Both the position numbers and the translations under genes were made by a program. A stretch of DNA of 9,132 nt from Deltaproteobacteria bacterium (lineage in GTDB: Bacteria > Desulfobacterota > JADFXK01), in assembly GCA_015233285.1 (NCBI GenBank), contig JADFYA010000020.1, forward strand, positions 9,760-18,891, written 5' to 3'. Below, piece after piece: positions 6,504 to 9,132 of the stretch (positions within the stretch are counted from its first letter, which is position 1; every line of letters starts with the position of its first letter). Under the pieces are notes generated by a model that made no database searches, was not told the origin of the DNA, and was given only the letters and a program-made list of their open reading frames with translations.

Positions 6504-6539
6504 CTGCCTGGTCCTCTTTGGCCGGGCAGTCTTTTTTTT
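6504..6539 (+). terminator. Intrinsic terminator after the 6053 gene
   Basis: An 8-bp stem CTGCCTGG with CCGGGCAG (one T-G pair) and a 10-nt loop, followed by TC and a run of eight T. It insulates the RHH gene downstream. Confidence 0.85.
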
Positions 6540-6561
6540 GGCCTAAGCTTTATCAACTTCC

Positions 6562-6624
6562 TTGACTATCTTGGGTAAAAGCACTAACGTAATGTTGACA
6601 TCATTTAGCTGTTAACATTAACGT
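6562..6624 (+). promoter_or_regulatory. Tandem promoters overlapped by inverted AACGT operator-like sites
   Basis: Promoter 1: TTGACT (6562-6567), 17 bp, TAACGT (6585-6590). Promoter 2: TTGACA (6595-6600), 18 bp, TAACGT (6619-6624). Each weak -10 lies inside an operator-like element: TAACGTAATGTT (6585-6596) and the inverted TTAACATTAACGTA (6612-6625). These match the motif repeated inside the gene they precede. Binding there would block the -10 boxes, so autorepression is the simplest reading. Confidence 0.6.
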
Positions 6625-6631
6625 AGGTACG

Positions 6632-7519
6632 ATGAAAGGAGCCAAGGTGGTTAAAAAAACAGAGGGTGAGCGGATTAAGGCGTGGACAGACCGGCGGCTG
6701 GCCGGTGGGGGCAAGCGGGTAACGGTTCTTTTGGATGGTGAGGCCGTGGAGGCGATGGAGTCCTTGAGGTTGCGTAAAGAGTCAAATCACGACCTGGTGT
6801 GCAGGTTGCTCAAGGAGGCCCGGCAGGGTATCGGCAGTAACGTTGATGCTGTAACAAATCAGCAGATTTTGGATGAACTAATCCGCCTGCGGGATGTTGT
6901 AACCAGCAACGTTAATGTATCACCTGTATTTGAGTATAAATACAGCAACGTTAATGTACGACCTACTGAAAGCTATGGTTACAGCAACGTTGGTGCTGAA
7001 GGCCAGACTAACCTTGATGGGAATATTCCGACTGACGTTACTCACAACCTTTCTGGGCATGGCGTGAGCATTAACGTTGATGGTACACCTATAACAGAGG
7101 TATATGACAGTAACGTTGCTGTAGCACCTGGCCCTGACTATGAAACCATTAGCGTTGATGGTATGCCTACAATGAAGTCTGATACCAGTAACGTTAATGT
7201 ATGTCTAACTGGCAAGTCGGCAACCATTAATGTTGATGGTGTACAAGCCCAGACCCAGGAGCCCGAGCCGACGCCACCGGTTCCCAAGGCTGAGGTTCAT
7301 CCGGACCTGGCGGCAATCAGAGCCATGCAAGACACCGGGATCGAGTTCGGAGAGATTCACCAGGCCCTACGAGCTTGGGCGATCACCCAGAGGGAGCAGG
7401 AGACTCCGTTCTCAGCCCTGGCGAACATGGTCAATGCGGCCGGAATTGTCGCCAGGCGCGGCGGGGCATGGCTTCCGTCAACCGTTCACCGATTGATCGA
7501 GGATAAAAAGAAGGCGTAG
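6632..7519 (+). CDS. Ribbon-helix-helix DNA-binding protein with internal 13-aa repeats and C-terminal HTH-like domain
   Basis: A 295-aa protein in three parts. Residues 28-64 have RHH form: strand KRVTVLL, helix DGEAVEAMESLRLRKE, turn, helix SNHDLVCRLLKEA. RHH proteins bind DNA as dimers through the strand. Residues 69-208 are a low-complexity linker of about ten 13-residue units, alternating SNVNV and INVDG starts; the spacers between them vary while the DNA core stays AACGTT. After a Pro-rich stretch (209-219), residues 223-290 resemble the helix-turn-helix of serine-recombinase 'Recombinase' domains (MVNAAGIVARRGGAWLPSTVHRLI), without any catalytic domain. The ATG at 6632 has a weak ribosome site. 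A GTG at 6647 has AAAGGAG at good spacing and may be the true start. Likely roles are an autoregulated replication or partition protein or a repressor. Two tandem promoters precede it. Confidence 0.8.
   Translation: MKGAKVVKKTEGERIKAWTDRRLAGGGKRVTVLLDGEAVEAMESLRLRKESNHDLVCRLLKEARQGIGSNVDAVTNQQILDELIRLRDVVTSNVNVSPVFEYKYSNVNVRPTESYGYSNVGAEGQTNLDGNIPTDVTHNLSGHGVSINVDGTPITEVYDSNVAVAPGPDYETISVDGMPTMKSDTSNVNVCLTGKSATINVDGVQAQTQEPEPTPPVPKAEVHPDLAAIRAMQDTGIEFGEIHQALRAWAITQREQETPFSALANMVNAAGIVARRGGAWLPSTVHRLIEDKKKA
6836..7245 (+). repeat. Array of about ten AACGTT-centred motifs in 39-bp register inside the RHH gene
   Basis: Exact AACGTT cores start at 6839, 6908, 6947, 6986, 7073, 7112 and 7190. One-base variants start at 7034, 7151 and 7229. 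Cores 6908-6986 (three) and 7034-7229 (six) are spaced exactly 39 bp; the gaps between the groups are 69 and 48 bp. The fuller motif is AGTAACGTTAATGTA or ATTAACGTTGATGGTA, alternating in the second group (78-bp higher-order unit). The first Val codon is GTT in all ten units, while the sequence between cores is divergent. This looks like conservation at the DNA level and not only of protein. Confidence 0.8.
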
Positions 7520-7546: not shown

Positions 7547-7705
7547 ATGGAAGAATACCCGTCTGAATTAAGCAAGCTTTTTGACGAAATCAACGAAGCA
7601 TTTGCGGCCAAGGATCGAGTCAAAAAACTTGAGGCCGAAGTGGCAAAGCTTAAACAAAAGTTGTCTGGAATTAAGGCACATCGGAAGCGAAAGCAAAGCG
7701 GGTGA
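7547..7705 (+). CDS. Small coiled-coil protein (52 aa) upstream of the integrase
   Basis: An ATG preceded by GGAGGGACTATAAGC, 27 bp after the RHH gene stop. The product begins MEEYPSELSKLFDEINEAFA and continues AKDRVKKLEAEVAKLKQKLSG with a heptad pattern (V, L, V, L, L), so a short parallel coiled coil is likely. It ends in a basic tail, KAHRKRKQSG. The stop at 7703-7705 is 55 bp before the integrase start. Coiled coil plus basic tail would suit a small DNA-binding dimer, and small proteins beside integrases are often excisionases or recombination directionality factors. This one lacks the usual winged-helix signature, so that remains a guess from position. Confidence 0.65.
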   Translation: MEEYPSELSKLFDEINEAFAAKDRVKKLEAEVAKLKQKLSGIKAHRKRKQSG

Positions 7706-7760
7706 CCATGACCAATCTGCCCGCAACAAGTTCACCAAGGGAAAGAAAGCGAGGGACTTT

Positions 7761-8582
7761 ATGGCCGTAAAAGTTCGAGAGAAACCGCCTGGGTCTGGTG
7801 TCTGGTGGGTGTTTATCGACCACCAGGGGAAACGGAAGGCCAAGAAGATCGGCAAGGACAAGAAGATAGCTCAGGATGTGGCCAAGAAGATTGAGGCCCA
7901 ACTGACCTTGAACGATTGCAATCTGGTGGACAGAAAAGACAAGCCTAAGCTTCCGCTGTTCAAAGACTATGCCGACCAATGGCTAGAAGGATATATCAAG
8001 CACATGCGGCGGCAGTCGACCTATCGGCGTTACCGTGAGGTTTTAAGGATGTATGTTGTGCCGGTTATCGGGGCGATGGTTATTGATGAGATCAAGCGTG
8101 GGGACATCCGCAGCCTGCTATTGAGTCTTTTCCGAAGGGGCTTATCTCGGAGTACGGTTTGCCTGGTCAGGGACGTAACCAGCGGCGTCATGGGTTATGC
8201 CTTAGATGAAGAGTTGGTGGCGGTAAATCCGGTTGCCGGAATAACCAAGCGGCTGAACCTGGGGCGAGACCAGAAAATTCATATCAACCCACTTAACCAT
8301 GACGAAGTGGAATTGTTCCTTGGAGCCTGTAGGGCTCATTATCTAGATCAATACCCTTTTTTCTTGTGCGCTTTCCGGACTGGAATGAGGCTAGGCGAGC
8401 TACTGGCCTTACGGTGGGGTGACATCGACTGGAACAGCAAGTTCATTGAAGTCGGCCGATCTTATAAGCTGGGGACTTTCACCCCGACCAAGACCGGCCG
8501 GACGCGCCGGGTAGACATGTCAGACGGCTTATCCCTACAACGACGTTTATCGTCTGAGGGCCATATTTCTCTTTCTATGTGA
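7761..8582 (+). pseudogene. Tyrosine integrase, C-terminally truncated by IS insertion
   Basis: The start is placed at ATG 7761 after GAGGGACTTT; the frame is open further upstream, but those residues overlap the 52-aa gene and look noncoding. Residues 1-50 are an arm-type domain (WWVFIDHQGKRKAKKIGKDK). Residues 65-165 are the SAM-like core-binding domain (LFKDYADQWLEGYI through VNPVAGI). The catalytic domain starts near 175, with the first catalytic Arg in RTGMRLGELLALRWGDID (R210) and the beta-hairpin Lys in TPTKTG (K244). After VDMSDGL (about 257) similarity stops and about 16 foreign residues lead to the stop. The HxxR box, the second His/Trp and the nucleophilic Tyr are all missing, so the protein cannot recombine. 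The full-length family is usually about 370-400 aa. The missing part should lie beyond the IS, outside the window. Confidence 0.88.
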
Positions 8583-9132
8583 CAGGTAAGCGCGGTGGTT
8601 GTTTAGCTGAATCCATTTGACCATGGTGAGGAGATATTCGATATCAAGAGTACGCATGGGCAGCACTGCCGTGAGTAAGATTCTAAGCTGCGACAGCGTA
8701 ACTGATGGCGCTTTTTTTCCCCAATCTAATGCGTATATGCCAAAGAAAGAAGTGGGCCAACATGCAGGTGAGTATATGGTGATGCCACCCTGGAAATTTC
8801 CTCACTTCATAATGATCCATGCCCAATTCAGTCTTACACTCTTCAAAGCATTGTTCAATGGCCCAGCGTATGCCGCTTAACCAGACAAAAACAGCCAGTC
8901 TGGTGCTAACGGGTGCGTTGCTTATGTAGAATGAATATTCCGGCTTTTCTCCCAGGGTGCGCCTGATGATCAGCCAAACAGTCTTGCAAGGGAGGCCATC
9001 TCTGCTGAGTGTGATGCGCCGCTTGGTAAATTCATACGTGATTGGCCCCTTGGTTCCTTCAGAAACTGTCCGACGGTACCAGAAATATTTATTTATCCCT
9101 TTGGCCAACGTAGCGACTTCTGTGGGACTTTT
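8532..9132 (-). mobile_element. IS701-like insertion sequence, right part only
   Basis: The boundary is inferred as about 8529-8546: integrase similarity ends at 8531 and the transposase reading frame (after frameshift correction) stops at 8547. The element runs off the window at 9132. The other terminal repeat and the target duplication are not visible, so the exact end is uncertain by about 15 bp. Confidence 0.7.
8547..9132 (-). pseudogene. IS701-family DDE transposase, 5' partial and frameshifted
   Basis: The - strand frame is open from the window edge (so the start is outside) to a stop at 8683. The visible part includes RRITLSRDGLPCKTVWLIIR, SFYISNAP and GIRWAIEQCFEECKTELGMDHYEVR, which carries the final Glu of the DDE triad, then FPGWHHHILTCMLAHFFL, all typical of IS701 transposases. 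After GKK the frame reads SAISYAVAA-stop. One base on, it reads APSVTLSQLRILLTAVLP and continues MRTLDIEYLLTMVKWIQL... HRAYLSHRKR to a stop at 8547, a good family C-terminus. The shift falls at a run of seven A in the coding strand (8712-8718, T on +); six A would restore the frame. Options are an inactivating indel, a sequencing error, or expression by polymerase slippage. Confidence 0.8.

Follow-up and report, generated by a model that had tools for sequence, protein, structure and literature searches.

Does the DNA that encodes the linker of a DNA-binding protein also serve as an array of binding sites for that same protein? The question is raised by a 9132-bp stretch of a Deltaproteobacteria contig (the window), in which a gene for a ribbon-helix-helix (RHH)-like protein carries a repeated, nearly palindromic DNA word in its linker-coding part. 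We found that this linker-coding DNA is an array under selection at the DNA level, and that in most members of the family to which the gene belongs, proteins of prophage-like elements in uncultured Deltaproteobacteria, the array is matched to the promoter of its own gene. The array is probably a set of intragenic sites for the protein itself, predicted from sequence, with like copies in the promoter.

The array in the window gene

All seven copies of AACGTT in the window lie within positions 6836-7245, in the linker-coding part of the gene. The original prediction, made from the window alone, had described ten AACGTT-type cores in these 410 bp, seven exact and three with one change, and we reproduced these counts. 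The same interval contains five one-change matches (at 7010, 7034, 7046, 7151 and 7229), and the three changed cores of the prediction are presumably those at 7034, 7151 and 7229, which fit a 39-bp series. The core positions confirmed that nine cores fall in exact 39-bp groups (6908/6947/6986 and 7034/7073/7112/7151/7190/7229). The period itself, which had been given as a property of the array, is exact in the window but does not occur in other members of the family.

The composition of the cores departs from what the protein sequence would be expected to give. The valine codon of the core is GTT in 10 of 10 cases compared to 6 of 22 among the other valines of the gene (Fisher p = 1.2e-4), as had been noticed, and seven copies of AACGTT were reached by 13 of 5000 synonymous-codon shuffles in which the protein was kept. 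Cores had been said to be constant and spacers unlike; in six 39-bp units that we compared, the 14-bp cores had a mean pairwise identity of 0.83 and the 25-bp spacers one of 0.41. The cores are the centres of near-palindromes of 14-18 bp with the consensus CAKYAACGTTRMTG, which fits six of the nine sites exactly and three with one change (Table 1). The nine sites are palindromic at 58 of 81 symmetric positions. Synonymous shuffles that preserved the protein and its codon usage had a mean of 39.5 and a best value of 52, and none of 3000 equalled the observed value; because the sites were picked by their cores, this test is partly post hoc. The constancy extends to the neighbouring codons. The codon preceding all nine palindromic sites ends in C, though it encodes Gly, Thr, Tyr, Ser or Asp, and the codon following each of them starts with G. 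Compensatory change between the two arms was also considered and was dropped, as covariation was within that given by the shared consensus (2943 of 10000 permutations).

Table 1. Features of the RHH-like gene and its promoter (positions in the window)
Feature	Position	Strand	Sequence or remark
Promoter half-site 1	6582..6594	+	CACTAACGTAATG, then TTGACA at 6595; L019 counterpart CAGTAACGTGATG
Promoter half-site 2	6616..6627	+	CATTAACGTAGG; L019 counterpart is the full palindrome CAGTAACGTTAATG
RHH-like protein gene	6632..7519	+	295 amino acids from the first ATG
N-terminal RHH-like domain, coding part	6653..6829	+	from alignment of eight homologues
Array site 1	6835..6848		CAGTAACGTTGATG
Array site 2	6904..6917		CAGCAACGTTAATG
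Array site 3	6943..6956		CAGCAACGTTAATG
Array site 4	6982..6995		CAGCAACGTTGGTG, one change
Degenerate site	7030..7043		core GACGTT, within the 39-bp series; not matched at ≤2 mismatches
Array site 5	7069..7082		CATTAACGTTGATG
Array site 6	7108..7121		CAGTAACGTTGCTG
Array site 7	7147..7160		CATTAGCGTTGATG, one change
Array site 8	7186..7199		CAGTAACGTTAATG
Array site 9	7225..7238		CATTAATGTTGATG, one change
C-terminal helical domain, coding part	7289..7516	+	from PF07508 likeness and model helices from residue 224

Related but imperfect half-sites occur in front of the window gene, where two of them, in direct orientation, flank TTGACA. Outside the array, the highest score of a matrix built from the nine coding sites was 12.5 bits, for minus-strand positions 6614-6628, which span half-site 2 just upstream of the first ATG; outside the gene and promoter, matches in the window reached at most 8.0 bits. 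No sigma-70 promoter was listed at the half-sites by a promoter scan. Upstream of the promoter there is a terminator-like stem followed by a run of T (6504-6529) that would shield it from upstream transcription. A GTG at 6647, which follows AAAGGAG and is aligned with an ATG of the relative described next, may be the true start of the gene.

A relative with the same word was found by its DNA. Searching a species-genome collection for a pattern of two neighbouring palindromes gave ten stretches, and one of these, L019, is a 6.7-kb contig of a Deltaproteobacteria metagenome-assembled genome (MAG; G001) with a homologue that is 41% identical overall and 77% identical in the RHH region. The L019 promoter contains a perfect CAGTAACGTTAATG beginning 32 bp before the start codon that aligns with the window, and also CAGTAACGTGATG. 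In the L019 linker the word recurs with a different spacing (core positions 81, 45, 90 and 87 bp apart), and AACGTT is intact at five coding cores. These five sites are palindromic at 31 of 45 positions, which was equalled by none of 3000 synonymous shuffles. The L019 promoter shares 27 8-mers with the window gene, where synonymous shuffles of that gene had a mean of 9.4 and none of 2000 reached the observed number.

Promoter and linker-coding DNA share a word in most relatives

Profile searches added three loci from G001 (L040, L042 and L083), two from a second genome of the class (L037 and L043, in G002) and two from a third (L038 and L052, in G003), so that members were present in all 3 class genomes searched. 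They also recovered two distant homologues from outside the class, L056 (G352) and L075 (G408). The sample comprises few members, on incomplete metagenome contigs; the words were partly defined by eye, and several of the tests were chosen post hoc.

Six different words were read by eye, and then counted, among eight array genes. Besides the word common to the window and L019, these were GACTACATAGTC in L037, TTAGCGCTAA in L038, the gapped word TTGATGNYAANNTTSATGCA in L043, CAGTACNNNANTGCTAC in both L040 and L042, and GTTNANATAAACG in L052. The words of L037, L038, L043, L040 and L052 occur both in the gene's own promoter and in its linker-coding DNA, and the linker peptides are very different from one another. 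The spacing between copies is irregular between members.

We quantified the matching by counting gene positions whose 8-mer occurs, on either strand, in the 160-bp promoter of the same gene, for the seven genes that have promoters. The counts were 18 for the window, 34 for L019, 40 for L037, 37 for L038, 15 for L043, 20 for L040 and 59 for L052. None of 1000 synonymous shuffles reached the count for L019, L037, L038, L040 or L052, and with 9-mers the counts were reached in 1, 0, 5, 0 and 0 of 1000 shuffles, respectively. When all 5040 pairings of the seven promoters with the seven genes were compared, the true pairing was the best, at k = 8 and at k = 9. The promoter of L040 also matched the gene of L042, which has the same word (24 8-mers, 0 of 2000 shuffles; 9-mers, 2 of 2000). 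A looser test (13 of 18 positions), introduced later to accommodate the gap in the L043 word, gave 0 of 300 shuffles for L043 and five other genes; for the window, 39 of 300 shuffles reached the observed number. Among 66 other genes used as a control, the mean z score was 0.39, with two above 3 (L025, z 15, and another at 3.1); the supposed promoter of L025 repeats the start of its own open reading frame (ORF), and we read this outlier as a local duplication. By these analyses, 8 of 11 RHH-type genes have an array. This number includes the window on the strength of its palindromes and of the L019 promoter, L042 on that of the L040 promoter, and L043 on the looser test only.

Selection on the DNA, which the original prediction had preferred to recent duplication, is the better explanation, because L019 keeps the word and because the peptides of the relatives translate words that match their promoters where these are known. 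A comparison of homologues had been proposed as a check on this point, and among those that we found there was none that keeps the peptide repeat with randomised synonymous codons.

The words are nearly private to their own genes. The exact 14-mer occurs in G001 at four sites, all of them at the L019 gene. In G003, all eight exact matches to GTTSAWATAAACG are at the L052 gene and promoter, and the reversed control had none; in G002, both exact matches to GACTACATAGTC are in the L037 promoter. On five partial contigs of 7-27 kb, when 1 to 3 mismatches were allowed, there were 1, 0, 1, 0 and 0 matches outside the gene and promoter.

The likely reader of the word and the role of the array

The N-terminal part of the protein shows the RHH pattern in an alignment of eight homologues. 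Profile matches were weak: 3 of 8 members, the window protein not among them, matched phrog_536 (transcriptional regulator; best E 7.6e-4), and 4 of 8 matched DUF7557 (best E 0.0018), the window protein with E 0.017 and 15 bits compared to a cut-off of 25. Searching the PDB gave a single match, with E 1.1. The fold of RHH (MetJ/Arc) proteins is beta-alpha-alpha, with a strand that pairs in the dimer; a low-confidence model of one chain has helices at residues 37-48 and 52-73 and no strand. This AlphaFold model, made from two sequences, was poor overall, with a mean pLDDT (predicted local distance difference test) of 46.8, values below 50 at residues 93-219, and 22-27 at residues 101-210. The linker is probably disordered, judging from this model, though the low pLDDT may equally reflect the thin alignment. 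Residues 221-290 form a block with pLDDT of 72-89 in the same model, and a fold search with it gave no match at E 0.001. Compared to the NCBI 'recombinase family protein' P0002, the likeness lies in the C-terminal domain, which resembles part of PF07508 'Recombinase' of serine recombinases (E 0.037; 14.7 bits compared to a Pfam cut-off of 21.1). A family scan matched no resolvase catalytic domain, the mark of a serine recombinase, in the window protein.

Comparisons among members suggest which domain reads the word. The window and L019 have a common word, with C-terminal domains that are 32% identical and RHH regions that are 77% identical. The window and L042 have different words and C-terminal domains that are 59% identical, and L040 and L042 have a common word and C-terminal domains that are 36% identical. 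Likeness in the C-terminal domain does not predict which word a gene carries, and this makes the N-terminal RHH-like domain the probable reader; we take these comparisons as a hint rather than proof. We strongly infer that the RHH domain binds the array and represses its own gene.

In the explanation that we propose, RHH dimers would bind the copies in the promoter and repress the gene, and would bind the intragenic array to form a nucleoprotein complex on the element's own DNA. A linker free of structural demands would let its codons be shaped by the DNA word, and paralogues with other words do have other peptides. The array would then serve the maintenance of a free prophage-like integrative element, in a centromere-like manner or in copy control, with the C-terminal domain as a bridging or tethering part. 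The maintenance role is a conjecture that we rate not far short of an even chance. We favour it for two reasons: type Ib partition typically involves an RHH repressor bound to iterated sites, and the example of StbA indicates that maintenance can do without a partner ATPase (sources cited below). More tentatively, and with more doubt than assurance, we suggest that the linker is a store of the protein's own sites. A change of specificity in the DNA-binding domain would drag the promoter and the linker DNA along with it, and the peptide would be a by-product; the gene would then be a self-contained maintenance locus that needs no partner ATPase, a single frame serving as regulator, as operator and as centromere or origin.

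The nearest known systems resemble the locus in part. The type Ib RHH centromere-binding proteins ParG and omega are repressors with iterated sites upstream of or overlapping their own promoters (PMC5016525). Iterated promoter sites are likewise present in L019, L037, L038, L043, L040 and L052, and the copies in the window promoter are imperfect. Unlike ParG and omega, the present proteins have an array in the gene as well, are larger (~300 amino acids), and have the RHH-like domain at the N-terminus with an extra C-terminal domain. Nor are they small proteins that end in the RHH domain, as in type Ib, and a PF13614 ATPase was not found nearby. StbA, a DNA-binding protein of plasmid R388, is described as giving plasmid stability through repeats around its own promoter, with the ATPase-like partner not required (PMC3098194); its repeats flank the promoter and, unlike the array here, are outside the coding region.

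Several observations weigh against the proposed explanation, or against parts of it. The RHH domain is assigned tentatively, from the sequence pattern and weak profile matches, and the model is poor in that region. L042 is without its 5' end, and thus without its promoter and RHH region, so the comparison of domains leans on L040. In the window itself, the 14-mer is absent from the gene's own promoter at ≤2 mismatches, and that promoter matches the gene weakly (88 of 1000 shuffles reached the 8-mer count and 128 of 1000 the 9-mer count). L043 was not significant with exact words (203 of 1000 for 8-mers and 452 of 1000 for 9-mers). L083 was borderline, with 22 matches compared to 9.8 in the 13-of-18 test (7 of 300 shuffles) and no significance for exact words. 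The promoter-to-gene tests found no array in L056 or L075; these two being from outside the class, the array may be confined to one branch. Privacy also weakens when mismatches are allowed. With one mismatch, the 14-mer had a fifth site at the gene in G001 and four sites elsewhere, where the reversed control had 3. With one mismatch in G002, the 12-bp GACTACATAGTC had 17 more sites, three in the gene and 14 elsewhere, for a total of 19 compared to 18 in the reversed control, and only the exact form is telling. Copies within a gene share one frame on the strand read, save for overlapping reverse-strand readings; stop codons bar some of the other frames, yet a peptide role is conceivable. Finally, on contigs that carry these genes in three genomes, the PF13614 ATPase had 0 of 27 matches, the contigs being incomplete. 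A ParA-like match was also absent from the eight window ORFs scanned; actin- and tubulin-like partners were not searched for.

Two alternatives accept an array bound by its own protein and compete with maintenance for the final step only. The first is that the array serves autoregulation and nothing else, either as a transcriptional roadblock or by titrating the protein as a sink. The protein level would then be held within tight limits, and the array would take no part in replication or partition. We consider this somewhat unlikely, though it is the simplest reading of words that are nearly private to one gene. The half-sites beside the TTGACA of the promoter, together with sites throughout the linker-coding part, are as it would predict, and LacI bound at O3 provides a precedent for autoregulation by a roadblock (PMC3711431). 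As many as 16 coding sites (L052, counted on one strand) seem excessive for such a purpose, a point that is not decisive.

The second, which we judge unlikely, is an embedded origin similar to that of phage lambda, in which the protein would be the initiator, the array would be its iterons, and the C-terminal domain would recruit the replication machinery. We know of no RHH initiator. There is a weak Toprim primase-like ORF in the window, and the layout of an array within a gene fits lambda O, whose sites are described as inverted repeats within the gene for their own binding protein, with a 40-bp A+T-rich region adjacent (PMC5043065). The likeness to ori-lambda is in the position of the array, binding by the protein being predicted here. 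Unlike lambda O, the present proteins have an RHH-like domain, a word that also occurs in their own promoters (in most members), irregular spacing between members, which weighs against this reading, and several words among paralogues. An A+T-rich unwinding region beside the genes was not seen. Stretches of 60 bp with ≥70% A+T were absent within 500 bp of the gene at four of five loci and occurred at the fifth only some 470-500 bp away, using 60-bp windows sampled every 30 bp, with which shorter stretches could be missed.

It is quite improbable that the protein is the immunity repressor of a temperate phage, with the array as its many operators or stoperators. The prophage context, with an integrase just downstream in the window, would be as expected, and different words in the paralogues of one genome would give heteroimmunity. 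Mycobacteriophage stoperators are described as many repressor sites that are spread over the phage genome and that also stop elongation (PMC9283540). Many sites for one protein are found in both cases; the sites described here are clustered at one gene, with 0 to 1 sites outside the gene and promoter on the five incomplete contigs.

Less credible still is a peptide repeat made by in-frame duplications of a motif, in which the likeness of the DNA would be a leftover or a codon bias. The copies are in one frame, some are alike in peptide as well, and the window's test against its own promoter was not significant. The spacers, however, are unlike (0.41 compared to 0.83 for the cores), the synonymous-shuffle tests speak against it, there are copies upstream of the start codon, and the other peptides of the paralogues agree with their own promoters. 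We give almost no weight to a role of the palindromes as hairpins in the transcript, since the fold excess of the window array (z -4.2 relative to 100 dinucleotide shuffles, all of which folded less well, as did 99 of 100 synonymous shuffles) was absent in seven other genes, for which 12 to 85 of 100 shuffles folded as well, and palindromic repeats pair mutually in any case.

The family offers a natural series, to date of six words, in which a DNA-binding domain and the sites that it probably reads have changed in step within a single gene. The code by which the domain recognises DNA, and how its specificity evolves, thereby become directly testable. The protein sequence is apparently dictated by selection at the DNA level, where annotation would see repeated peptides. 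Should the array prove to be a centromere or an origin, this single gene would make up a whole maintenance locus, comparable to lambda O and to type Ib partition in a compact form.

Distribution and genomic context

Few genomes outside the three of the class matched. Among 99 relatives of G001 there were four matches at 1e-3, of which the fourth (G042) is a recombinase, and among 395 genomes sampled from the phylum, five matched at 1e-6. Two of these five are from outside the class: G352, with an RHH-type gene, and G186, in which the match is to the C-terminal part only. Searching 196 relatives of G352 gave five matches, of which G408 was new. Three candidates that match in the C-terminal domain only (G002:C44, G002:C77 and G186:C5) were excluded from the family, as was the recombinase G042:C8; the G002:C44 gene, the only one of the three inspected, had no array evident by eye.

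Other searches found little. The window protein matched only itself among 5.8 billion proteins, and a two-sequence alignment matched one further protein. A first genome scan gave no relatives, and none turned up when the window protein, A1, L052 and L037 were used to scan viral contigs. A tblastn search matched nothing in phages and gave six weak C-terminal matches to recombinases in plasmids (E 0.09-0.9). A distant blastn search with 6560-7260 listed 21 plasmid and 97 phage records with a best E of 0.2, which we took as chance. Among 16 stretches with the palindrome-pair pattern (6 viral and 10 genomic), only L019 holds a relative, judged by the ORFs at the site. Six viral matches to a 39-bp triple pattern were unrelated repeat proteins by their local ORFs, and a pair pattern from the L052 word had no match in viral contigs. 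In viral contigs with relatives of the window's DUF5131 protein (L007-L010), the RHH gene had no homologue, the one match being of 16 residues with E 0.76. We did not find a description of such a family in the open-licence literature, judged by titles and the openings of abstracts.

The surroundings of the genes are those of mobile elements in several cases. A phage integrase lies immediately downstream of the RHH gene in the window, and the L037 contig also carries an integrase. The L052 contig is prophage-like, because it contains an endolysin, a holin and an integrase; it has in common with the window a DUF5131 protein (53%) and a small protein (40%). At 1303-2736 the window encodes a protein that joins a ParB-like N-terminal part to DUF5131, and shorter ORFs or fragments akin to it were observed downstream of the RHH gene in L058, L059, L060 and L062. 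The integrase frame of the window (7581-8582) ends early and is followed by a minus-strand transposase-like ORF at 8683-9108, so named from reading its sequence; the arrangement suggests an insertion within the integrase gene or next to it.

Some members of the family, such as L040 and L043, may be decayed. The L040 gene (L061/L040) is interrupted by an in-frame TAG downstream of its RHH part, and that of L043 (L063) stops before most of the C-terminal domain. L083 (1480-1785) is a short RHH gene in G001 that has a TTACATGTAA-type word in its promoter, and related half-words occur in the L056 promoter.

Other palindromic sites were met in the pattern searches. The viral contig L016 has eight TAACGTTAATG-type palindromes (≤2 mismatches) at 214-340, one every 13-17 bp, at a site with no frame of more than 90 codons; these make up a separate iteron-like array. 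Palindromes of the CATTAACGTTAATG type occur in pairs, 34 bp apart, in L017 (4000), L020 (4012), L024 (3217) and L025 (6082), which come from two Paenibacillus, a Lachnospiraceae MAG and Acetatifactor; the pairs may be the operators of another regulator.
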